Source: Acrocarpospora macrocephala (GTDB lineage Bacteria > Actinomycetota > Actinomycetes > Streptosporangiales > Streptosporangiaceae). From it: a DNA stretch of 64,000 nucleotides. Location of the stretch: NCBI RefSeq assembly GCF_009687865.1, contig NZ_BLAE01000046.1, positions 1-64,000 of the forward strand, read 5' to 3'. Shown in pieces: positions 2,170-12,200 of the stretch. Each line of letters opens with the position of its first letter. The stretch's first letter is position 1. The translations under genes were made by a program, and so were the position numbers. The notes under the pieces are model-generated. The model worked only from the letters and a program-made list of their open reading frames with translations, made no database searches and was not told the DNA's origin.

Positions 2170-3927
2170 ATGCTGGTCGAGGAAATGGCTGATCGCCCCC
2201 AGTCCCCACCGTCCCAGAGCACATTCCTCTCCAATGCGACGAGGTACCTCTGCGCCGCCGCATATATCGATCCCGCCTTCCGGGATAAAGTGGTCGACGA
2301 ACTTCTCGCCGACAACAGGGCCGTCGCACCCTCGTACGGCGGGCTGGACGTGTCCCCGGTGCTGGCCCACTGTCTGCGGTCGCAGCGTTTCTCCTGGATG
2401 CGTGACGGGGCCATCACCGTGCTCATGCTGCTGGGCGTCCTGCTCAACCCCGCCTCGCTAGGCGTCCTGCTCCTGGCTCTGCCCTTCGCCCTGCTGGCCT
2501 TGTCGTTCGTGAAGGAGAGACGGGTCCTGCGGGTGGTGGTGATCATCTGGGCGGCCTGGAACGCGCTCACACTGATCGCATCCCTGGCCGTCACCACACT
2601 CCTGGCCCTGCTGTCCACCGGTGCCCCTCTGATCGGCGGCCTGAACAGCCTGGCCCCCCGGCGGAACGTTGCTGATCAGATAGCCGTCAGCCTGGCCAGC
2701 CTAGGAACAATCTTCACAATTGCCGCATTCCTGGTAGGAATCGCCTACTGGGTTGGCCAATACATTCTTCTCTCCAAATCCTTCCGCCCTGGCGAGCCGC
2801 ACGTCATCCCATTCACCGACTACGGTACGGACGTCCGACGCCAGAATTACATCAAAAACGCACAGTGGGGCAATTTAACCCTCTACGACGGCGAAGACCC
2901 CTTCATCGGCGCGGGCGCCACCAATCGCGCCTGGTCCATCGTCGTCGAACTCGACCGTCGCCGCCCCGAACACGGCAAGACCTCCGGAACCCGCCGCAAC
3001 ACGGCCATTGACCCCGTGCAGCTCCATACCTTCGTTCGGGAACGCCTCGCCCAGATGCGGGACGACGTCGTCAACCCCGAAGAGAGCATTGTCCGCCTCG
3101 CCATCAAGGATCATCTGACGGCGCCAGGCACGTTCCGTCGTCCCGACTGGAACACCAGTTTCCCCCGCGAACCTTGGCTGAACCAGAGCCACCCCCTCAT
3201 CGACGAGCACGGCTTCCCCCGCTTCACCCTCGACGACGACGCGATCCAGGCCGTCATCCGCCATCCACAGGGCGCCATGCGCTACTACCAGCGCGTCACC
3301 ATCGGCGCGGAAGGCCCACCGGTCACCAAACCCGACGGCCAGGCCGTCATGCCCGGCATCGACCGCGAAATCGACATCTCCGCCTTCATCTACCTCGCCG
3401 TCGAAGGCCGCATGTTGTACACCCAGTTCCTGGTCACCGCCCTGCCACCCTGCAAGCGGGAGTACCACATCATCGACGTGCTCCCCGCCATGACCTCACC
3501 CGTACAAGTCGCCCTTCAGGCCCTGCGAGCCGTCCGACTCCAGCTCGCGGCAGAGATCCTTTTTGCGCCCTTCCGCCTGGTCGGCCTGATCTGGCGGGAA
3601 CTCATGAAGGCCATCACTAAGCCCAATCCCGCACGTTTCCGGGTGTTTCCCTTCGGCTCCCGCCAGAGCGTACGGGAACTAGGCGCCGAACCCGAGCCGA
3701 CCAGCTTCATGCAGGTCCTCGACATCGACAAGTACAGCAAGCTCATTTCCCAGCGTCTCACCGAGGCCGTCCTGGACTACCTCGAAGACCAGGAAATCGA
3801 CACCGCCATCTACCGTCAGCAGGCCTCCACCGTCGTCAACTACGGCGCACTGATCACCGGCGGCACTATCACCGGCCCCGTAGCCGCCGGCGCCGCCGCC
3901 ACCGCCACCCAATCCCGCTCCAACTGA
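2170..3927 (+). CDS. Membrane protein of unknown function with C-terminal Gly-rich motif
   Basis: 585 residues from ATG 2170, which has AGGAGA 5-6 bases upstream (a GTG at 2143 lacks one). About three hydrophobic segments lie near residues 80-110, 120-150 and 175-200. A long soluble domain follows, with no motif I know. The extreme C-terminus holds NYGALITGGTITGPVAAG followed by an Ala/Thr-rich run. The next gene, 43 bases downstream, carries a very similar string at its N-terminus (NHGISISGGNVSGPMAAG). Paired glycine-rich motifs in adjacent actinobacterial genes resemble amyloid-type or conflict-system signalling motifs, so a membrane effector or sensor partnered with the next protein is my inference. 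Confidence 0.75.
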   Translation: MLVEEMADRPQSPPSQSTFLSNATRYLCAAAYIDPAFRDKVVDELLADNRAVAPSYGGLDVSPVLAHCLRSQRFSWMRDGAITVLMLLGVLLNPASLGVLLLALPFALLALSFVKERRVLRVVVIIWAAWNALTLIASLAVTTLLALLSTGAPLIGGLNSLAPRRNVADQIAVSLASLGTIFTIAAFLVGIAYWVGQYILLSKSFRPGEPHVIPFTDYGTDVRRQNYIKNAQWGNLTLYDGEDPFIGAGATNRAWSIVVELDRRRPEHGKTSGTRRNTAIDPVQLHTFVRERLAQMRDDVVNPEESIVRLAIKDHLTAPGTFRRPDWNTSFPREPWLNQSHPLIDEHGFPRFTLDDDAIQAVIRHPQGAMRYYQRVTIGAEGPPVTKPDGQAVMPGIDREIDISAFIYLAVEGRMLYTQFLVTALPPCKREYHIIDVLPAMTSPVQVALQALRAVRLQLAAEILFAPFRLVGLIWRELMKAITKPNPARFRVFPFGSRQSVRELGAEPEPTSFMQVLDIDKYSKLISQRLTEAVLDYLEDQEIDTAIYRQQASTVVNYGALITGGTITGPVAAGAAATATQSRSN

Positions 3928-3970
3928 CCAAGCCCACAACATCAATCTCTCCGAATCAGGGCCGATCGAT

Positions 3971-4318
3971 ATGAGCGAATCCGTCAACCACGGCATCAGC
4001 ATCTCAGGGGGCAATGTCTCCGGTCCGATGGCCGCCGGGAACCAGCCCCAAGCCATCCAGAACATCACCCAGACAGCAGCCGCCAACGACCTGCTCGCCA
4101 GGATCGACGCCCTTCTCACCCAACACGAAACCACCCTTGACGACCCCGCCGCCGCCCGTGCCGAACTCGACCGCATCGGCACCGAACTCGCCCTGCCCAC
4201 CCTCGACCAGAACACCCTCAGCAGCCGCCTGACCCGCCTGGCCCAGCACGTCGCGTCGGTCGCCACCCTCGCCGAAGCCGTCGCCGCACTCACCGCTCTA
4301 CTGTTTCCCGTGTCCTAG
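3971..4318 (+). CDS. Small protein with N-terminal Gly-rich motif and helical C-terminus
   Basis: 115 residues. Residues 6-23 (NHGISISGGNVSGPMAAG) nearly repeat the C-terminal motif of the preceding membrane protein. The rest is predicted to be helical, with heptad-like spacing (LLARIDALLTQHE, LSSRLTRLAQHVASVATLAEAV). ATG 3971 is used with a modest upstream purine run. It is probably in one operon with the upstream gene. It resembles short actinobacterial proteins of unknown function with the same GG-x-(I/V)-x-GP-x-A-x-G signature. No enzymatic residues are visible. A partner or adaptor of the membrane protein is inferred from the shared motif only. Confidence 0.7.
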   Translation: MSESVNHGISISGGNVSGPMAAGNQPQAIQNITQTAAANDLLARIDALLTQHETTLDDPAAARAELDRIGTELALPTLDQNTLSSRLTRLAQHVASVATLAEAVAALTALLFPVS

Positions 4319-4433
4319 AGCGCTGCGATATGCCCTCTCAAATGCCGACATGCATATGCGCGGCCCACTGGGCAGGGCTGGCCGGGAAGCGGTGCGAAGA
4401 CGGGCATCACATACTTTGCGAGTGAGCGGTAGC

Positions 4434-5012
4434 ATGCACACCATGTCGCGCGGCGCACAAAACCCACCCGACTGGTTCTTGTACGAGCAGAGCGTCGCAT
4501 TTATTCTCGCACAAATAGACGCCGACGCCGTTGTCGAGCACCATGTCACCGTGATTGGCAGATTGAGTGGGCGACCGCGTCAGGTCGATATCCGAGTGAC
4601 CGGAACCATCGCCGGGTGCGAAGTCGTCATCGCTGGGGAATGCAAGCATCTGACGAAAACTGTTGGAATAGACATAGTGGAAGGTTACCTGGCCAAGCTC
4701 GATGACGTCGGAGCAGATCTTGGTTTCCTGACGTCGTCGTCAGGTTTCACGGACCCAGCCCGTCAGCGCGCGGAAAGCTCGCGTTGTCCAAGATTATTGC
4801 TACAGCAAGTCCCGTACGCTGTGGGCAGGACTCTCACAGCATTGACGGGTCTACACCGGCGCTATGTTGACCTGTATCTAGCGCTTAACAATGACACCCT
4901 AAATAAGCGGCAAGCCTACAGCCTTTCTCGACGGTATGATGGCATGGCACGGCAGCTTCGCGAATTCGGAAGTTCCGGGGCTGAGGCACTGGCTGCACAC
5001 GGTTTGCTATAA
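4434..5012 (+). CDS. Restriction-endonuclease-like (PD-(D/E)XK) protein
   Basis: 192 residues from ATG 4434; ATG 4443 is also possible, and neither has a strong ribosome site. Residues about 40-70 hold the nuclease-fold signature: RQVDIRVTG (metal-binding Asp), then VVIAGECK (E-x-K). A glutamate upstream (YEQSVAFIL) would be in the first helix. This pattern is typical of Mrr-like and related DNA-cleaving domains. Codon use is clearly less GC-rich than in the neighbours (third positions are often A or T), which suggests recent transfer. It follows the Gly-motif pair by about 115 bases and may be a third part of that island. DNA cleavage is inferred, and the target is unknown. Confidence 0.65.
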   Translation: MHTMSRGAQNPPDWFLYEQSVAFILAQIDADAVVEHHVTVIGRLSGRPRQVDIRVTGTIAGCEVVIAGECKHLTKTVGIDIVEGYLAKLDDVGADLGFLTSSSGFTDPARQRAESSRCPRLLLQQVPYAVGRTLTALTGLHRRYVDLYLALNNDTLNKRQAYSLSRRYDGMARQLREFGSSGAEALAAHGLL

Positions 5013-5062
5013 CACTTGCCACCTCCGGGTGAAGAAGATGGAGCGGTCGGGTTTCCGTCGGG

Positions 5063-5893
5063 TCAGGTGAACAAGCGCCGTACCGCGCACACCAGGAGCA
5101 GGCGGAGTGCGAAGGGGAGATCGTCGATCAGATATCGGCGGGCCAGGCGGTTGGGCTCGGTGCTGAGGCGGTAGAGCCACTCCAGTCCGTGGTCGCGCAT
5201 CCAGTGGGGCGCGCGCCGTACCGAACCGGCGGCGAAGGCGATCGCGGAGCCGCAGCCGACGAACCAGGTGGCCGGTAGGTCGGCGCGGAGGCGGTCGATC
5301 AGCAGGTCCTGTTTGGGGAAGCCGAGTCCGACGAAGACCAGGAGGGGGTTCGCGTCGAGCAGTGCCCTGCGCATCTGCTCGAATCGTTCGGGGTCGGTCT
5401 CGAACCCGGGCGTAGGAGCGTCCACCCCGGCGACGATGAGGCCGGGATAGCGTTCGCAGAGTGCGGTGGCCGCTCGATCCGCCACGCCGGGCGGGCCGCC
5501 GAGCAGGTAGATGGGCAGCCGGTAGAACGCCGCCGCCTCCGACAGCGACCAGATCAGCTCGGCTCCCGTGATCCGGGCCGGCAGTGGGCGGCCGAGTAGC
5601 CGGGCCGCCCACACCAGCGGCATCCCGTCGGCCACCGCCAGATCGGCTTTCAACACCAGCGCCCGCAATTCGGAGTTCCGCGAGCAAGCCCGGCAGATAT
5701 CCACGTTCGGCGTGATCACATGGCCCCCGCGTCCCCGCCGGAGCGCCGTGACGACCCGGTCCACGACCTGGATCTCGGTCAGCCGATCGACCTCGATCCC
5801 GGCCACCGAGACCCGGCGTCGCCGCCGCCGGACGGTCTGCTCCGGCGCCGGACGCTGCCGGGGTATGGCGAGCAGCGACTGGATGCGCCCCAT
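5063..5893 (-). CDS. WecG/TagA/CpsF family glycosyltransferase
   Basis: 276 residues. It contains the GT26 family core: TPNVDICRACSRN, ADLAVADGMPLVWAARLLG, and a C-terminal GCGSAIAFAAGSVRRAPHWM followed by GLEWLYRLSTEPNRLARRY. These enzymes add an N-acetyl-hexosamine-type sugar to a lipid-linked acceptor at the inner membrane. ATG 5893 shares one base with the stop of the upstream GT2 gene, so it is the last gene of the 12200-to-5063 unit. The N-terminal 35 residues are very basic. Longer upstream reading in this frame is only shadow of the GT2 gene. Confidence 0.9.
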   Translation of the reverse strand: MGRIQSLLAIPRQRPAPEQTVRRRRRRVSVAGIEVDRLTEIQVVDRVVTALRRGRGGHVITPNVDICRACSRNSELRALVLKADLAVADGMPLVWAARLLGRPLPARITGAELIWSLSEAAAFYRLPIYLLGGPPGVADRAATALCERYPGLIVAGVDAPTPGFETDPERFEQMRRALLDANPLLVFVGLGFPKQDLLIDRLRADLPATWFVGCGSAIAFAAGSVRRAPHWMRDHGLEWLYRLSTEPNRLARRYLIDDLPFALRLLLVCAVRRLFT

Positions 5894-6786
5894 CAGATGC
5901 CGTGCCCCCGGGTGTTCAGCGCCGCGAGCACGGCGTGCGCGGACACCAGGCCGGTCGCGACGGCCAGCGCGATCGGCGCGCGGAGCTCGCCCCGGCGGGC
6001 CGAGAAGGCGCGCAGCGCCCACCGCCCGGCCTCGCGCCGCCGCCCGAGCGCCGCATGGTGGAAGGCGAGCTGACCGTAGACGCGAGCCGCGCCGGTCGGG
6101 TCGGCGCCCAGTTCCGGATGCCTGGCCAGCATCCACTCCAGCCCGGCGATGCGATCCGCCCAGCGAGTCACATACTGGGAGCCTCCCCAGCGGACCCGCA
6201 CCAGCGGACGATCCACATGCACGATCGGCTGCCGCCTGGCCGCACGCAGGGCCAGATCCCAGTCCTCGTTCTGGCCGCCTGGAGCGCTCTCGTCCACCCA
6301 CAGCGCGCCGCGCCGGAACAGGAACGTGGAGGAGTGCACCATCATCATCCGCGACCTGACCAGGTCGGCCACGGTCACCTCGGAGCGGCCCGCGGTGCGG
6401 GGGACGACGCGGGAGCCGTACTCCACCTCGATGGCGCAGGAGGCGAACTCGGCGTCGCCGAGGGCGGCGATCTGCGCGGGCAGCTTGCCGGGCAGCCAGA
6501 GGTCGTCGTCGTCGCAGAAGGCGATCAGGTCGGTGGTGAGCGCGGCGATGCCGGTGTTGCGCGCGCCGGGAAGGCCGGGGCTGAGCCGGTTGGGCAGCAC
6601 CCGGACCCGGCCACGGGTGGCCGCCACGACGTCCGCGATCTGTTCCGCGACGTCGATCGGATCGCCTCCGTCAGAAACGACGGCAACCTGGGCGGGATTC
6701 TGCCCCAGCACGCCTTCGAGCGCGGCGCGCAGCGGGCCCGGCCGGTCGCCGCGCGTGGGGATGACAACGCCGACGGACGGGTTCAT
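5893..6786 (-). CDS. Family 2 glycosyltransferase
   Basis: 297 residues with a GT-A fold. It has SVGVVIPTRGDRPGPLRAAL at the start, GARNTGIAALTTDLIAFCDDDD (the DXD-type metal site) near residues 75-100, and NEDWDLALRA (ED acid/base motif) near residue 170. It transfers an activated sugar during glycan assembly. The C-terminal third (EWMLARHP onward) is helical and may contact the membrane or partners. It sits between a sulfotransferase and the WecG-type gene with near-zero spacing. The sugar specificity cannot be read from the sequence. Confidence 0.88.
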   Translation of the reverse strand: MNPSVGVVIPTRGDRPGPLRAALEGVLGQNPAQVAVVSDGGDPIDVAEQIADVVAATRGRVRVLPNRLSPGLPGARNTGIAALTTDLIAFCDDDDLWLPGKLPAQIAALGDAEFASCAIEVEYGSRVVPRTAGRSEVTVADLVRSRMMMVHSSTFLFRRGALWVDESAPGGQNEDWDLALRAARRQPIVHVDRPLVRVRWGGSQYVTRWADRIAGLEWMLARHPELGADPTGAARVYGQLAFHHAALGRRREAGRWALRAFSARRGELRAPIALAVATGLVSAHAVLAALNTRGHGI

Positions 6787-6802
6787 GTCTCGGTCTCCGG
6801 AA

Positions 6803-7720
6803 CTAGTAGGTCAGGCGGTAGCCATACCGCAGCAGGAAGGGAAGGGTGATCAGGGTGACCGCCCAGCGGTGCGGGAAGGGCAGGGCGGCGTGGTTCTCGC
6901 GGAATCTGATCCGGCCGACCGCGAAGCGCATCGGGTTGCCGGAGACGGTGTGGGCGACGCCGAGGCGGGCCTCGTGGCCGACGAGGAACGCGAAGTCCGG
7001 CTCTCCGCACGGCAGGCCGAGGCGTTCGGCCAGCCGGCGCAGCGTCCGCGTCGGCTCCTCGACCAGATCCTCGTAGTGCACCCGCAGCACGGGCACGCCC
7101 TTGACGCGTAACACCTCGTACGCGAGGTTCTGCACCACCCAGTGCACGGCGGTCCTGGCGGGGGTCCAGCGCGCCATCGGCCTGCCGTCCTCCGGGCGTG
7201 CCACCTTCCTGCGCCACGACGCGGCCACCGCGCGGGGATCACGCACCACGTGCACGACCTGCAAATCCATGATCGCCGACAGGCAGTACGCGAGCGAGGC
7301 ATGCTTGCTCGAATCCACCACCACCCGGCCGTTCACTATCTCAGCGGCGGCCGCGTAGATCCGGTAGTAGGACGCCACATACTCGGTCAGCAGCGCCTCG
7401 CGGCTGATCAGGCCGAACGCGAACACCGGCACCCGCCGGGTCCGGTCCACCTTGCCGCGCAGCTCCTGCAGGCGCTCCGCCTTGGCGGCCCGCCAGCCGC
7501 CGAACGCGCGTTCCCCCACCTTGTGCCAGAACGGGCACTGCGAGAACGACTGGCGGCAGCCGCACGGCTCGTCGGCCTGCACGCCGCGCCGCCACAGATG
7601 CACGACCTCACCGAGCGGCGCGACCCCGGGCAGCTCTCCGAGCAGGCGCTCCAGCAGCGTGGTGCCGCTGCGGCCGAGCCCTCCCACAAAGATCACCGGC
7701 TGAGCGTCAGACACGAGCAC
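6803..7720 (-). CDS. Sulfotransferase family protein
   Basis: 305 residues from GTG 7720, or 303 from GTG 7714. The PAPS-binding loop VGGLGRSGTTLLERLL is at residues 12-27 and the 3'-phosphate region VVHVVRDPRAVAASWRR is near residue 135. A CGCRQSFSQCPFW cysteine cluster near residue 55 is common in bacterial family members. It lies directly downstream of cysN and cysD, whose product APS is the PAPS precursor, and upstream of two glycosyltransferases. It therefore probably sulfates the glycan made here. It is not closely similar to the other sulfotransferase at 888-1811, so the two may act at different positions. Confidence 0.88.
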   Translation of the reverse strand: MLVSDAQPVIFVGGLGRSGTTLLERLLGELPGVAPLGEVVHLWRRGVQADEPCGCRQSFSQCPFWHKVGERAFGGWRAAKAERLQELRGKVDRTRRVPVFAFGLISREALLTEYVASYYRIYAAAAEIVNGRVVVDSSKHASLAYCLSAIMDLQVVHVVRDPRAVAASWRRKVARPEDGRPMARWTPARTAVHWVVQNLAYEVLRVKGVPVLRVHYEDLVEEPTRTLRRLAERLGLPCGEPDFAFLVGHEARLGVAHTVSGNPMRFAVGRIRFRENHAALPFPHRWAVTLITLPFLLRYGYRLTY

Positions 7721-7774
7721 GACCCCCGAAGTGGATACGGAACGTGCCGACGCTAGCGCGGAGAGTAACTACTT

Positions 7775-7792
7775 GTTCACGGAACGTTAAAT
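7775..7792 (+). promoter_or_regulatory. PHO-box-like direct repeat (weak)
   Basis: GTTCACG-GAAC-GTTAAAT gives two 7-bp units 11 bp apart, the spacing of actinobacterial PhoP boxes (consensus GTTCACC). It lies in the 83-bp gap between cysN and the sulfotransferase. The first unit matches 6 of 7 bases, the second only part. This is a suggestion, not a firm site. Confidence 0.25.
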
Positions 7793-7803
7793 GATCTACC
7801 TGA

Positions 7804-9048
7804 TCAGAGGATCATCCCGGCCCCGACGGTGCCGTTGCTGGCCTCGTCGATCAGGATGAAGCCACCGGTCAGCCGGTTCCTGGCGTAGTCGTCCACGAAC
7901 AGCGGCTGGGTGATGCGCAGCGACACCCGGCCGATCTCGTTGAGCGACAGCTCGGCGGCCGTCTCGTCGCGGTGCAGCGTGTTCACGTCCAGCCGGTAGT
8001 GCAGGTCCTTGACCAGGGCGCGCGCGGTCCGCGTGGTGTGCTTGATGGTCAGCTTGGCCCGCGGGCGCAGCTTCACGCTGTCGGCCATCCAGCAGATCAT
8101 CGCGTCGATCTCCTGGGTGGCGAGCGGCTGGTTGTTCGGGCGGCAGATCATGTCGCCGCGCGAGATGTCGATGTCGTCCTCGAAGCGCAGGGTGACCGCC
8201 ATCGGCGGGAACGCCTCGTCCACCGGACCGTCGAAGGTGTCGATCGCGGCGATCCTGGTGGCCATCCCGGACGGCAGGTGCATGACCTCGTCGCCCGGCT
8301 TGAGCACGCCGCCCGCGACCTGCCCGGCATAGCCTCGGTAGTCGTGGAATTCCGTCTTGTGCGGGCGAATGACGTACTGCACGGGGAAGCGCACGTCGAC
8401 CAGGTTGCGGTCGGAGGCGATGTGCACGTTCTCCAGGTGGTGCAGCAGCGAGGTGCCCTGATACCACGGCATGTTCTCCGAGCGGGAGACGACGTTGTCG
8501 CCGTGCAGCGCGGAGATCGGGATGAAGGTCAGGTCGCTGGCGTTGAGCTTGGACGCGAACGAGGTGAACTCCTCGCGGATCTCCTCGAACCGCTCCTCGG
8601 AGTAGTCGACCAGGTCCATCTTGTTGACCGCGAGCACCAGGTGCGGCACCCGCAGCAGCGTGGTCAGGAACGCGTGCCGCCGCGACTGTTCCAGGACGCC
8701 CTTGCGCGCGTCGATCAGAATGATGGCCAGGTCGGCCGTGGAGGCGCCGGTGACCATGTTCCTGGTGTACTGAATGTGCCCGGGCGTGTCGGCGATGATG
8801 AACTTGCGCTTGGGCGTCGCGAAGTAGCGGTAGGCCACGTCGATGGTGATGCCCTGCTCGCGTTCGGCGCGCAGGCCGTCGGTGAGCAGCGAGAGGTCGG
8901 TGTATTCGGTGCCGCGGTCCCGGCTGGTGCGCTCGACGGCTTCCAGTTGGTCCTCGAAGATGGCCTTGGAGTCGAAGAGCAGGCGGCCGATCAGCGTGGA
9001 CTTGCCGTCGTCCACGGATCCGGCGGTGGCGAACCGAAGGATGTCCAT
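7804..9048 (-). CDS. cysN: Sulfate adenylyltransferase large subunit, GTPase
   Basis: 414 residues. It shows a GTPase domain with TAGSVDDGKST (P-loop), DTPGHIQYTRNM (G3) and VNKMDLVDY (G4), then beta-barrel domains. With CysD it couples GTP hydrolysis to formation of APS from sulfate and ATP. It ends where CysN-only proteins end, so there is no fused CysC kinase domain. No separate cysC is in the window, so the APS kinase needed for PAPS must be elsewhere. The ATG shares one base with the cysD stop. Its place in a glycan cluster, away from cysteine-synthesis genes, suggests it serves sulfation. Confidence 0.96.
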   Translation of the reverse strand: MDILRFATAGSVDDGKSTLIGRLLFDSKAIFEDQLEAVERTSRDRGTEYTDLSLLTDGLRAEREQGITIDVAYRYFATPKRKFIIADTPGHIQYTRNMVTGASTADLAIILIDARKGVLEQSRRHAFLTTLLRVPHLVLAVNKMDLVDYSEERFEEIREEFTSFASKLNASDLTFIPISALHGDNVVSRSENMPWYQGTSLLHHLENVHIASDRNLVDVRFPVQYVIRPHKTEFHDYRGYAGQVAGGVLKPGDEVMHLPSGMATRIAAIDTFDGPVDEAFPPMAVTLRFEDDIDISRGDMICRPNNQPLATQEIDAMICWMADSVKLRPRAKLTIKHTTRTARALVKDLHYRLDVNTLHRDETAAELSLNEIGRVSLRITQPLFVDDYARNRLTGGFILIDEASNGTVGAGMIL

Positions 9049-9962
9049 CAGAAGTACCCTTCCTTCTTGCGGTCTTCCATCGCCGCCTCGGAGGCCCGGT
9101 CGTCGGCCCGGGTGGCGCCGCGTTCGGTGATCCTGGTCACCGCGATCTCTTCGATGATCTCGCTCACCGTGGCGGCCGTGGAGTGGACCGCGCCCGTGCA
9201 GGTGATGTCGCCGACCGTGCGGTAGCGCACCATCGCCTCGAACAGCGGCTCGTCGTCGCCGCGCTCCAGCACGTCCGACTCGGGGAGCAGCATGCCGTCG
9301 CGCTCGAACACCTTCCTGGTGTGGGCGAAGTAGATCGTCGGGATCTCGATGCCCTCCCGGCGGATGTAGTCCCAGATGTCGAGCTCGGTCCAGTTGGACA
9401 GCGGGAACACCCGGATGTGCTCCCCCTTGCGGATCTTCGCGTTGTAGAGGTTCCACAGTTCGGGCCGCTGGTTCTTCGGGTCCCACTGCCCGAAGTCGTC
9501 CCGGAACGAGAACACCCGCTCCTTGGCCCGCGCCTTCTCCTCGTCCCGGCGCGCGCCGCCGAACACCGCGTCGAACTCGTGCTCCTCGATGGCGTCCAGC
9601 AGCGTGGTCGTCTGCAGCCGGTTCCGGGACGCCCGCCGCCCGGTCTCCTCGACCACCCGCCCGGCGTCGATCGAGTCCTGCACGGACGCCACCACCAGCC
9701 GCGCGCCCAGCTCGGCCACCCGCCGGTCCCGGAAGTCGATGACCTCGCTGAAGTTGTGGCCGGTGTCCACGTGCATGAGCGGGAACGGGATCGGCGCCGG
9801 CCAGAACGCCTTCTCCGCGATGCGCAGCATCACGATCGAATCCTTGCCACCGGAGAAGAGCAGGCAGGGGCGCTCGAACTCGGCCGCGACCTCACGCATG
9901 ATGTGGATCGCCTCGGCTTCGAGGACGTCGAGCTGCGACGTCGTGTAGTCGCGCTGAAGCAT
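9048..9962 (-). CDS. cysD: Sulfate adenylyltransferase small subunit
   Basis: 304 residues. It has the PP-loop ATP-pyrophosphatase core (LLFSGGKDSIVMLRIAEKAF, residues 34-53), the PHA-like MHVDTGHNFSEVIDFRD, and GGARRDEEKARAKERVFSFRD, all typical of CysD. It adenylates sulfate in a complex with CysN. It is in one operon with cysQ upstream (26-bp gap) and cysN downstream (1-bp overlap). Length and motifs are normal. Confidence 0.97.
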   Translation of the reverse strand: MLQRDYTTSQLDVLEAEAIHIMREVAAEFERPCLLFSGGKDSIVMLRIAEKAFWPAPIPFPLMHVDTGHNFSEVIDFRDRRVAELGARLVVASVQDSIDAGRVVEETGRRASRNRLQTTTLLDAIEEHEFDAVFGGARRDEEKARAKERVFSFRDDFGQWDPKNQRPELWNLYNAKIRKGEHIRVFPLSNWTELDIWDYIRREGIEIPTIYFAHTRKVFERDGMLLPESDVLERGDDEPLFEAMVRYRTVGDITCTGAVHSTAATVSEIIEEIAVTRITERGATRADDRASEAAMEDRKKEGYF

Positions 9963-9988
9963 TGGGGGCTTCCTAAGATTGGGGATGG

Positions 9989-10750
9989 TTACACAGGCCG
10001 ATGCAGGTCACGGATGCCGGCGAGCAACGTCGGCGCCAGATCCGGTAGGCAGACCAGGATATCGGGCAGGGACGGGTCGGCTTGGTTGTAGGTCAGCGGC
10101 GAGCCGTCGATGCGGCTGGCGTGCGCTCCCGCGGCGAGCGCGACGGCCGCCGGAGCGGCCGAATCCCACTCATACTGGCCACCGGCGTGCACGTAGGCCT
10201 CGACCTCGCCGGTGAGCACCGCGCAGATCTTCGCGCCCGCGCTGCCGATCGGGACCAGGTCGGCGCCGGCCAGATAGGCGAGTTTCTGTACGAACTCGGG
10301 CGGCCTGGTGCGGCTCACCGCGATCCGGAATCGGGGGCCTTCATGGCGCGGCAGCCTGGGGGGCTTGCCGGTCGACAGCGTACGGCCCTGCGCGGGCAAC
10401 GCCACCGCGCCCGCCGCGAGCTCGCCCTTCTCCCAGAGCGCGACGTGCACCGCCCAGTCCGCCCGCCCGGCCTCGCCGAACTCGCGGGTGCCGTCCAGGG
10501 GGTCGACGATCCACACCCGGCTCGCCTTCAGCCGGGCCGGATCCTGCCGGTCCCCTTCTTCCGACAACACGCTGTCGCTCGGGCGCAGGCGTTCCAGCGA
10601 TTCGGTGAGGAAGCGGTGGGACTCGCGGTCGCCCGCGTCCTTGAGCGCTTTGGGGTCATCGAAGCCGTATCGGGCGCGCAGGCGTAAAAGCTTCTCGCCT
10701 GCCTCCGTCGCGAGGTCTTCGGCTAGGGCGTGGTCGTCTCTGATCGTCAT
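9989..10750 (-). CDS. cysQ: 3'(2'),5'-bisphosphate nucleotidase, inositol-monophosphatase family
   Basis: 253 residues. The metal and substrate motifs of the family are present: VLSEEGD near residue 60, WIVDPLDGTREF near residue 82, and GGQYEWDSAAPAAVALAAG near residue 205. CysQ converts PAP to AMP. PAP is the by-product released each time a sulfotransferase uses PAPS and it inhibits those enzymes. Location between the priming sugar transferase and cysD fits that clearing role. Four bases separate it from the upstream stop. Confidence 0.92.
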   Translation of the reverse strand: MTIRDDHALAEDLATEAGEKLLRLRARYGFDDPKALKDAGDRESHRFLTESLERLRPSDSVLSEEGDRQDPARLKASRVWIVDPLDGTREFGEAGRADWAVHVALWEKGELAAGAVALPAQGRTLSTGKPPRLPRHEGPRFRIAVSRTRPPEFVQKLAYLAGADLVPIGSAGAKICAVLTGEVEAYVHAGGQYEWDSAAPAAVALAAGAHASRIDGSPLTYNQADPSLPDILVCLPDLAPTLLAGIRDLHRPV

Positions 10751-10754
10751 TTTC

Positions 10755-12200
10755 TCAGTACGCTCCTGCTCCGCGTGCCACGGCCGACCACGTCTTCCAG
10801 AGGATTTGAAGATCCAACATCAGGGACCAGTTCTCGACATAACGCAGGTCCAACCGTACCGATTCCTCCCAGGACAGGTCGGATCTGCCGTTCACCTGCC
10901 AGAGGCCGGTCATGCCGGGGCGGACCAGCAGGCGGCGGCGGACGTCGTCACCGTAGCGGGCCACCTCCTCTGGCAGGGGCGGGCGGGGGCCGACCAGGGA
11001 CATGTGGCCGTTGACCACGTTGATGAGTTGGGGGAGCTCGTCGAGCGAGTGACGTCGCAGGCGGGCTCCGAGTGGGGTGATCCGGGGGTCTCTGCGGATC
11101 TTGAAGAGCACCCCGTCGGCGTCGCTGACCAGCTGGATCTTCCGGTGTTCGGCGTCCTGGGCCATGGTGCGAAATTTCAGGATGGTGAACTCCTGGCCGT
11201 CCCGGCCGACCCTGGTCTGGCGGAACAGGGCGGGGCCCGAGCTGGTCACCCGGACGGCGATCGCCAGCGCGAGCAGCAGCGGTGACAGCAGGATGAGGAC
11301 CACGCCCGCGACCAGGCGGTCGAAGCCGTTCTTGATCAGCCGCCGGACTCCGGCCAGTTCCGGATGTTCCACGTGCAGCAGGGGCAGGCCCGCCACCGGG
11401 CGGATCGTGGTGCGCGGCCCGGCCACCTCCATCAGGGCCGGCGCCACCACCAGGTCGGTACGGCTGCGCTCCAGCCGCCACGCCAGCCGGCGCAGCGCGA
11501 TCCCGTCGAACTCCGGGCAGGCGAGCACGGCGACCGTGTCGGCGTTGATGCGGTTGACCACCAGCGGCACGTCGGAAAAATCGCCCAATACGGGGACTCC
11601 GACGTCGGGGCCTTCCTCGGGGAGGCAGGCGGCCACGATGTCCATGCCGTGGTAGCGCTCGCGGCGGAACAGGCGGACCAGGTCGGCGACCGCTTCCGGG
11701 TGTCCGACGGCGACGACTCGGCGCATGCACTGGCCTCGGGATCTTCTGCGGTGCAGGCCGCGGCGCAAGCCGTACCGGCCGAGGAGGGTCAGAATGGTCA
11801 TGAGCGGGAGGGCGAGTACGACGTAGCCGCGGGCCAGGTCGGTCTTGGTGACGTAGGCGGCGATGGCCACGGCGGCGATGATCGCGATGCCCGACTGGGC
11901 GATCCGGCGGAACTCCTCGGAGCCGACGCCGATCAGCCGGGGTTCGTATACGCGGTTGAGGGCCATGACGATCACCCACAACAATGGCAGGGTTCCGCTC
12001 AGCAGAACGTAAGGCTCCACATACGGAGTGACTTCCCCGAATCGCAGGACCACCGCCGCGGCTCCGGCGAGAAAGGCGCAGGTGATGTCGGACATGGCGG
12101 CACTCACCCGATACCGGAGGGTCCAGGTCGGCGTCAGCTTTCGCTCCGGCACCGGTAGCGCCCGGTCGACGACGACCGCCCGCATCTCGCCGTCCCTCAC
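10755..12200 (-). CDS. Polyprenyl-phosphate sugar transferase (exopolysaccharide priming enzyme)
   Basis: 481 residues. GTG 12200 is preceded by GGAGG at 5 bases. Four to five N-terminal membrane segments (residues 35-150) are followed by a CoA-binding-like domain (RVVAVGHPEAVADLVRLFR). The C-terminal catalytic bacterial sugar transferase domain has a membrane helix (VAGVVLILLSPLLLALAIAV), ILKFRTM, LDELPQLINVVNGHMSLVGPRPP and RPGMTGLWQVNGRSDLSW. It transfers a sugar-phosphate from a nucleotide sugar to undecaprenyl phosphate, the first step of repeat-unit synthesis. It is the first gene of the seven-gene minus-strand unit ending at 5063. Confidence 0.93.
   Translation of the reverse strand: MRDGEMRAVVVDRALPVPERKLTPTWTLRYRVSAAMSDITCAFLAGAAAVVLRFGEVTPYVEPYVLLSGTLPLLWVIVMALNRVYEPRLIGVGSEEFRRIAQSGIAIIAAVAIAAYVTKTDLARGYVVLALPLMTILTLLGRYGLRRGLHRRRSRGQCMRRVVAVGHPEAVADLVRLFRRERYHGMDIVAACLPEEGPDVGVPVLGDFSDVPLVVNRINADTVAVLACPEFDGIALRRLAWRLERSRTDLVVAPALMEVAGPRTTIRPVAGLPLLHVEHPELAGVRRLIKNGFDRLVAGVVLILLSPLLLALAIAVRVTSSGPALFRQTRVGRDGQEFTILKFRTMAQDAEHRKIQLVSDADGVLFKIRRDPRITPLGARLRRHSLDELPQLINVVNGHMSLVGPRPPLPEEVARYGDDVRRRLLVRPGMTGLWQVNGRSDLSWEESVRLDLRYVENWSLMLDLQILWKTWSAVARGAGAY

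Follow-up and report, generated by a model that had tools for sequence, protein, structure and literature searches.

A conserved pair of neighbouring genes in Actinobacteria with matching, co-varying motifs: a candidate signalling module without an NLR

Introduction

In Acrocarpospora macrocephala, a membrane protein (A) and a small helical protein (B) are encoded by adjacent genes and carry similar glycine-rich stretches, A in its tail and B in its head. This raises the question of whether the two products act together and, if so, in which way. The genes lie in a stretch of 64,000 nucleotides (contig NZ_BLAE01000046.1, positions 1 to 64,000), which is called the window here. An initial annotation of the window had suggested a sensor-effector or defence module that also includes a following nuclease gene. 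As argued below, A and B probably form a two-gene homotypic-motif signalling module that works like an amyloid signalling pair, with A as hub and B, or a PNP enzyme in its place, as exchangeable output.

Results

Protein A (585 aa) is encoded at 2170-3927 on the forward strand, with the sequence AGGAG at 2160-2164 ahead of its ATG. According to an alignment of relatives, the chain is built from a conserved N-terminal segment, hydrophobic segments, a large C-terminal domain with the signature SAFIYLAVEGRMLY, and a tail with the motif. The hydrophobic part (residues 79-203; 2404-2778, forward strand) contains Kyte-Doolittle segments at residues 79-120, 118-159, and 167-203 and may form about four transmembrane helices, helix number and topology both being predicted. 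A Pfam scan of A revealed no family, including NACHT and NB-ARC, and none fitted the 21 aligned A proteins, among which two families were matched once each (best E = 0.0076). A search of solved structures with A gave nothing convincing (best E = 0.016), and no PADLOC-DB model matched the window protein up to E = 1.

Protein B (115 aa; 3971-4318, forward strand) starts 43 nt past the stop codon of A and consists of the motif head and a DUF5955-like helical domain. The DUF5955-like stretch (residues 42-107; 4094-4291, forward strand) matched PF19380 with E = 1.5e-4 and a score of 22.5 bits, which is under the curated cut-off of 27.1. Among 28 B relatives, 22 matched the family at E ≤ 0.1, the lowest E-value being 4.1e-9, and the cut-off was exceeded by some relatives, e.g., those of genomes G070, G047, and G019. 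In a literature search no paper on DUF5955 was found. The best hit of B among solved structures was a designed coiled-coil protein (E = 0.0011), which was not convincing, and the PADLOC-DB models gave one weak match only to the window protein (E = 0.008). Among the 28 B relatives the best PADLOC match was PDC-M14B (6.2e-8); one model of it, PDLC04451, was found in none of 148 genomes, and we rejected this assignment and read the match as a helical resemblance.

Alignment and profile searches placed the motif at residues 557-574 of A (3838-3891, forward strand; NYGALITGGTITGPVAAG) and at residues 6-23 of B (3986-4039, forward strand; NHGISISGGNVSGPMAAG), with the consensus NxGxxIxGGxxxGPxAxG. 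The two stretches are identical at 10 of 18 positions, and at 14 of 30 over a wider alignment. The shared motif of the initial annotation is thereby upheld, with a count corrected from 11 to 10 identities. Its description of motifs at opposite ends is likewise right for the layout, but 11 residues follow the motif in A, which is therefore located near the C-terminus and not at it.

Since the motif is rich in glycine and alanine, the match might be a product of chance or of low complexity, or might stem from a recent DNA duplication. The local alignment of the A tail and the B head scored 69, compared to a mean of 24.4 (sd 5.0, maximum 45) for shuffled sequences, so that none of 2000 shuffles reached the observed value. 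In the 12.1 Mb genome, a motif-only profile (30 columns, 22 rows, both window sites among the rows) gave six matches at E ≤ 1, and the A tail and the B head of the window were the only sites below 0.1 (1e-12 and 9.5e-14), the next one having an E-value of 0.16. When applied to 60 genomes, the same profile found 12 sites at E ≤ 1e-4, 11 of which were A tails or B heads; the twelfth was located directly behind a divergent A gene (G139). Eight of these 12 sites were themselves profile rows and four were not (G007 twice, G024, and G139). A profile derived from 28 partner proteins, with no A rows, found the A tail of the window with E = 5.6e-4 and also picked up A tails in five other genomes. With respect to duplication, the residues shared by tail and head used the same codon in 455 of 717 cases at 48 loci, compared to 426.5 expected from codon usage. 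This is a slight excess, which we counted against our main reading; because codon agreement is near expectation, with a small excess at most, the likeness of tail and head is held mainly at the protein level. Permutation and Mantel tests also contradict an origin by chance or duplication, which we consider hardly credible. A common glycine-rich string without correlation between neighbours, which the initial annotation had named as the outcome that would undo its proposal, does not describe the motif, as it is specific and co-varies with its neighbour across Actinobacteria.

A search of 198 related genomes detected relatives of A in 49 of them (E ≤ 1e-3), and 67 named loci carry such relatives. 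The genera include Acrocarpospora, Microbispora, Herbidospora, Planobispora, Planomonospora, Nonomuraea, Streptosporangium, Actinomadura, Thermomonospora, Actinoplanes, and others, and the closest named relative is that of Acrocarpospora phusangensis (65% identity). To define partners, the ORF was picked by position and codon bias, blind to the motif. At 56 of the 67 named loci, an intact adjacent small partner with a motif-like N-terminus was present. These partners were 91-134 aa long with one exception of 321 aa, and 53 of them started within 30 nt of the A end or overlapped it, the overlap being 4 nt in 22 cases. The other 11 loci were set aside and classed by eye after viewing: B was frameshifted or unreadable at L077, L110, and L126; the A tail was present with no B seen downstream at L082 and L095; both tail and B were missing at L087 and L088; L089 lay at a contig end; the partner of L103 was encoded in trans; at L118 B was present with its start missed; and L127 was masked. 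The two loci having a tail without a visible downstream B were counted against our main reading. The initial annotation had asked whether both motifs co-occur in neighbouring genes, and this is answered by the 56 adjacent partners and by the co-variation reported below.

Strong A matches (E ≤ 1e-70) occurred in 18 of 118 genomes, and 15 of these 18 also contained a strong B match (E ≤ 1e-10). In one of the three remaining genomes, B was cut by a contig end. The other two, from Microtetraspora and Thermocatellispora (G013 and G031), have an A protein without the tail motif, and no B was found in either genome; as tail and B adjoin, the loss could be explained by one deletion each. Outside the strong-A set, a strong B was found in one genome of the 118 only, and there a divergent A adjoined it. 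A plasmid search gave two weak partial matches only, and a phage search revealed no copies.

The match between tails and heads was compared with that of permuted pairs in a set of 43 non-redundant loci (A core < 60% identity), which included rows without a partner. The mean own tail-head score was 61.4, compared to 34.5 after permutation (sd 1.65, maximum 41.5; 0 of 20000), and the own head ranked first in 19 of the 43 loci and in the top three in 25. In group subsets, which were chosen after the pairs had been viewed, own and permuted scores were 79.6 and 63.2 for the Streptosporangiaceae-type group (2 of 20000), 68.8 and 55.9 for the PNP pairs (8 of 20000), and 80.2 and 39.4 for hand-picked divergent motif types (0 of 20000). 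The Thermomonosporaceae-type group (13 loci, two of them without an intact partner) gives little support, because own pairs barely exceed permuted ones (40.8 versus 37.8; 569 of 20000). Considered singly, 51 of 79 pairs reached 0 of 300 shuffles; of the 65 named loci at which a next ORF was called, 26 fell short of this level (17 with a partner and nine without an intact one). The own head scored better than the head of the nearest relative at 45 of 79 loci, worse at 27, and equally at seven; when the nearest relative had < 60% identity, it was better at 21 and worse at five of 26 loci. For 30 loci, a set that excludes PNP pairs as well as loci lacking an intact partner, the divergence of tails and that of heads were correlated with a coefficient of 0.74, and the partial correlation given the A core and the B body was 0.43 (0 of 5000). 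Tails and heads thus co-vary beyond inheritance. Very different motifs still match within their pair, e.g., at L090, L091, L096, L100, L106, and L122.

Rhizohabitans carries A (L103) and B (L169) on different contigs, with no partner adjoining A and with B adjoining a LepA-like gene identified by eye. Despite this separation, tail and head matched with a score of 85 (maximum of 1000 shuffles 48), and B ranked third best of 79 heads. Three genomes carry an A-B pair plus an A-PNP pair, and in two of them cross-scores were low: own scores were 107 and 70 and cross-scores 24 and 19 in G061, and own scores were 42 and 89 and cross-scores 25 and 28 in G070. In the genome of the window, the A tail and the second pair's PNP head gave a score of 54, above the 44 of that head with its own partner, so that cross-talk is possible and insulation is not clean there.

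At ten loci of the set, the partner with the matching head was a PNP/UDP-type protein. Five PNP partners were scanned and matched PF01048 (PNP_UDP_1) with E-values of 2e-13 to 9e-20, and both PNP partners compared with PADLOC matched 'Effector, PN-superfamily' (4e-21 and 2e-19). The A protein of L096 aligns with window A over residues 11-567 with 36% identity, yet its partner is a PNP protein; a single kind of A can thus be followed by different outputs. Two sources, in their available parts, list PNPases with the domains of conflict systems (PMC8195603, PMC7159879), and in fungi PNP effectors are joined to their partners by amyloid motifs, as far as the accessible text of PMC9815663 goes. The sensor-effector idea of the initial annotation fits the PNP partner and its PADLOC-listed defence effector domain.

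Several individual loci deserve mention. In the genome of the window, locus L057 (G000:C24) has a second, divergent A-like gene (5652-7232); the gene after it (4736-5632), likewise on the minus strand, encodes a PNP/UDP phosphorylase whose motif head is the one that scored 54 with the window's A tail. At L056 and L060, the partners of divergent A genes bear two tandem motif-like stretches instead of one. L175 encodes a PNP_UDP_1 protein (703-1845; E = 2.2e-29) in which the B profile matches a C-terminal stretch; the product of the following gene has an Asn/Gly-rich head. In the Streptomyces-type genome of L177, a right-handed beta-helix protein (152-1468) ending with FNDEVHGVQLAWNNTTAIQQQ is followed by a B-like protein (1504-1872) starting with FNEAFSGAQFAWNNQSVTQNQQ, which is the same layout with a different upstream protein. 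The B head VSGGNFFGA of L078 (6727-7071) resembles, by eye, VSGGNFYGS of the fungal sigma motif peptide AAS80314.1, as given in the part of PMC8086366 available; this could be chance.

The exchange of B for a PNP enzyme bears on two other explanations. Tail and head might dock statically: they would form a fixed beta structure that does not propagate and keeps A and B permanently joined, possibly in the service of envelope or hyphal growth, with neither an amyloid step nor an immune role. This is the chief rival of our main reading, as it accounts equally well for conservation, co-variation, and insulation, and the Streptosporangiaceae loci L064, L087, and L169, which share a place near lepA and the same neighbours, look more like a resident pair than a mobile defence island. 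We nevertheless regard static docking as less likely, since the two sides are alike in sequence and not complementary, which favours like-with-like stacking, and since an effector-type PNP domain can replace B. The other explanation reverses the direction of the signal, with A as a membrane-acting effector and B as its activator. In Bell-NLR pairs, the effector carries its motif C-terminally and the receptor N-terminally, according to the accessible portion of PMC7889193, and these are the positions of the motif in A and B, respectively. A PNP enzyme as N-terminal carrier, however, is of effector and not of receptor type, and A is large with a long conserved part, presumably cytoplasmic, unlike the small Bell domain; the reversed direction therefore appears doubtful to us.

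A gene for an Mrr-type restriction endonuclease (4350-5012, forward strand; PF04471, E = 3.2e-4) starts 31 nt after B on the same strand, which would suit a defence island of three genes in which the nuclease acts as effector. However, no relative of the nuclease was present among the genes of 40 A loci, and its relatives in five other of 118 genomes were in no case near an A gene. The nuclease as a third component was discarded on the basis of this absence, contrary to the initial annotation, and a three-gene island is highly improbable.

Around A and B, the window encodes functions of a polysaccharide-type locus, i.e., a MatE/polysaccharide flippase-type protein, WecG/TagA-type and family 2 glycosyltransferases, and a sugar transferase. 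Two sulfotransferases, a PAPS-reductase-type protein, an EF-Tu-type GTPase, an inositol-monophosphatase-type protein, and glycosyltransferases are encoded together at 888-1811 and 5063-12200, as if for a sulfated polysaccharide. The location inside a polysaccharide locus described initially is accurate for the window; at 65 named loci, the surroundings of the A gene contained no counterpart of any other gene from the window's first 14 kb.

A zinc-ribbon protein adjoins the A-B pair in 39 of 66 sources, which comprise the 65 named loci plus the initial 14 kb of the window; the window itself is not one of the 39. The protein has a CxxC...CxxC start together with a hydrophobic segment and a conserved C-terminal region, and it sometimes occurs in tandem; examples are L061 (7102-7848), L097 (7149-8153 and 8254-9597), and L098 (7241-8203). 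Of 118 genomes, 37 carry the gene, including 15 without an A match, and it was rejected as a core component because it is not specific. In 18 of the 66 sources, a protein of about 1000 aa is encoded upstream of A on the same strand. The one that was scanned (L098, 1795-4845) matched HerA_C (E = 3.9e-9) and DUF87, and all sources with this HerA-type ATPase belong to Actinoallomurus, Thermomonospora, Actinomadura, or Spirillospora.

Discussion

The proposal of a homotypic-motif signalling module has its direct support in the motif match and its specificity, the conservation of the pair, the co-variation, the exchange of the partner, and insulation in two of the three genomes with two systems. 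The tail and head motifs are alike and not complementary, short, and glycine-rich with spaced hydrophobic residues, lie at free ends, and are lineage-coded. Like-with-like stacking of this pattern is described for amyloid signalling motifs in the available parts of PMC7889193 and PMC8086366. Because the motif fits this pattern, we propose that A nucleates a beta-arch via its tails and recruits B or PNP. In this mechanism, A would be anchored in the cell membrane by its hydrophobic segments, with the large C-terminal domain and the tail in the cytoplasm. After triggering of A, the tails would cluster and take on a stacked beta-arch, amyloid-like form; acting as a template, this form would pass its fold on to the N-terminal heads of B and thereby gather the helical domain of B at the membrane. 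B would be an exchangeable output, and a PNP/UDP phosphorylase in its place would destroy nucleosides or nucleotides. Membrane topology, amyloid templating, and the direction of the signal are in this way predicted from the proteins and their relatives, and the pair may serve in regulated cell death or, as the initial annotation had suggested, in defence.

On a broader view, A-B might represent a widespread actinobacterial class of prion-like signalling without an NLR, which we put forward tentatively and at less than even confidence: a multi-pass membrane protein outside any known family would serve as receptor or hub, and a private motif code would be lineage-specific, largely insulated between systems in one cell, and select a DUF5955-like protein or a PNP/UDP phosphorylase as output. 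If A-B works as proposed, amyloid templating in bacteria would extend to the direct coupling of a membrane protein with outputs that are small or enzymatic. The co-varying, lineage-specific motif pairs offer a natural library on how prion-like motifs gain and keep specificity, and membrane protein, partner, and motif are direct handles for experiments.

With respect to known systems, a literature search, the reach of which into subscription papers was small, found no description of the A-B pair, and A and B were without significant match to the models of anti-phage systems in PADLOC-DB. Unlike many mobile defence systems, A-B is scarce on plasmids and was not found on phages. The helical domain of B matches the DUF5955 family (PF19380), whereas Streptomyces genes above the family cut-off lack the motif head in all 13 readable of 24 loci. 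A short homotypic signalling motif is also a feature of RHIM and the necrosome-type amyloids of BASS3, but no RHIM-like core was seen by eye in the consensus given above. Similar to the fungal PNP_UDP effectors with PUASM or HRAM, a PNP_UDP protein is tied to a partner encoded next door by a motif of amyloid type, a putative one in our case; according to the accessible text on the fungal proteins (PMC9815663), PNP_UDP bears their motif C-terminally and has an NLR as partner, whereas here the motif is N-terminal and the partner is a membrane protein, and the window pair itself has no PNP.

The closest comparison is with bacterial amyloid signalling, as the neighbouring A and B genes encode matching C-terminal and N-terminal motifs. 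Dyrka et al. 2020 reportedly described BASS1-10, pairs of a Bell effector and an NLR. In the available parts of PMC7889193 and PMC8086366, these systems share three features with A-B: the two genes lie side by side in multicellular actinobacteria; a short Gly/Asn-containing motif of the like-with-like kind is carried C-terminally by one product and N-terminally by the other; and motif pairs diversify in step. As far as the accessible publications go, bacterial amyloid signalling is built on NLR receptors. The N-terminal carrier in A-B is not an NLR but a DUF5955-like helical protein (B and 27 relatives) or a PNP enzyme (PNP_UDP_1 in the five scanned partners). A is a predicted multi-pass membrane protein of 585 aa and probably not a Bell domain; its Pfam scan gave no match, and with its length and its several hydrophobic segments it is unlike the small Bell domain described in the available part of PMC7889193. 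Since the NLR that defines published BASS is missing, we did not file A-B as a BASS-NLR pair. The best reading is that A-B is an NLR-free, membrane-anchored relative of bacterial amyloid signalling, in which amyloid formation, a trigger, and an immune role are presumed.
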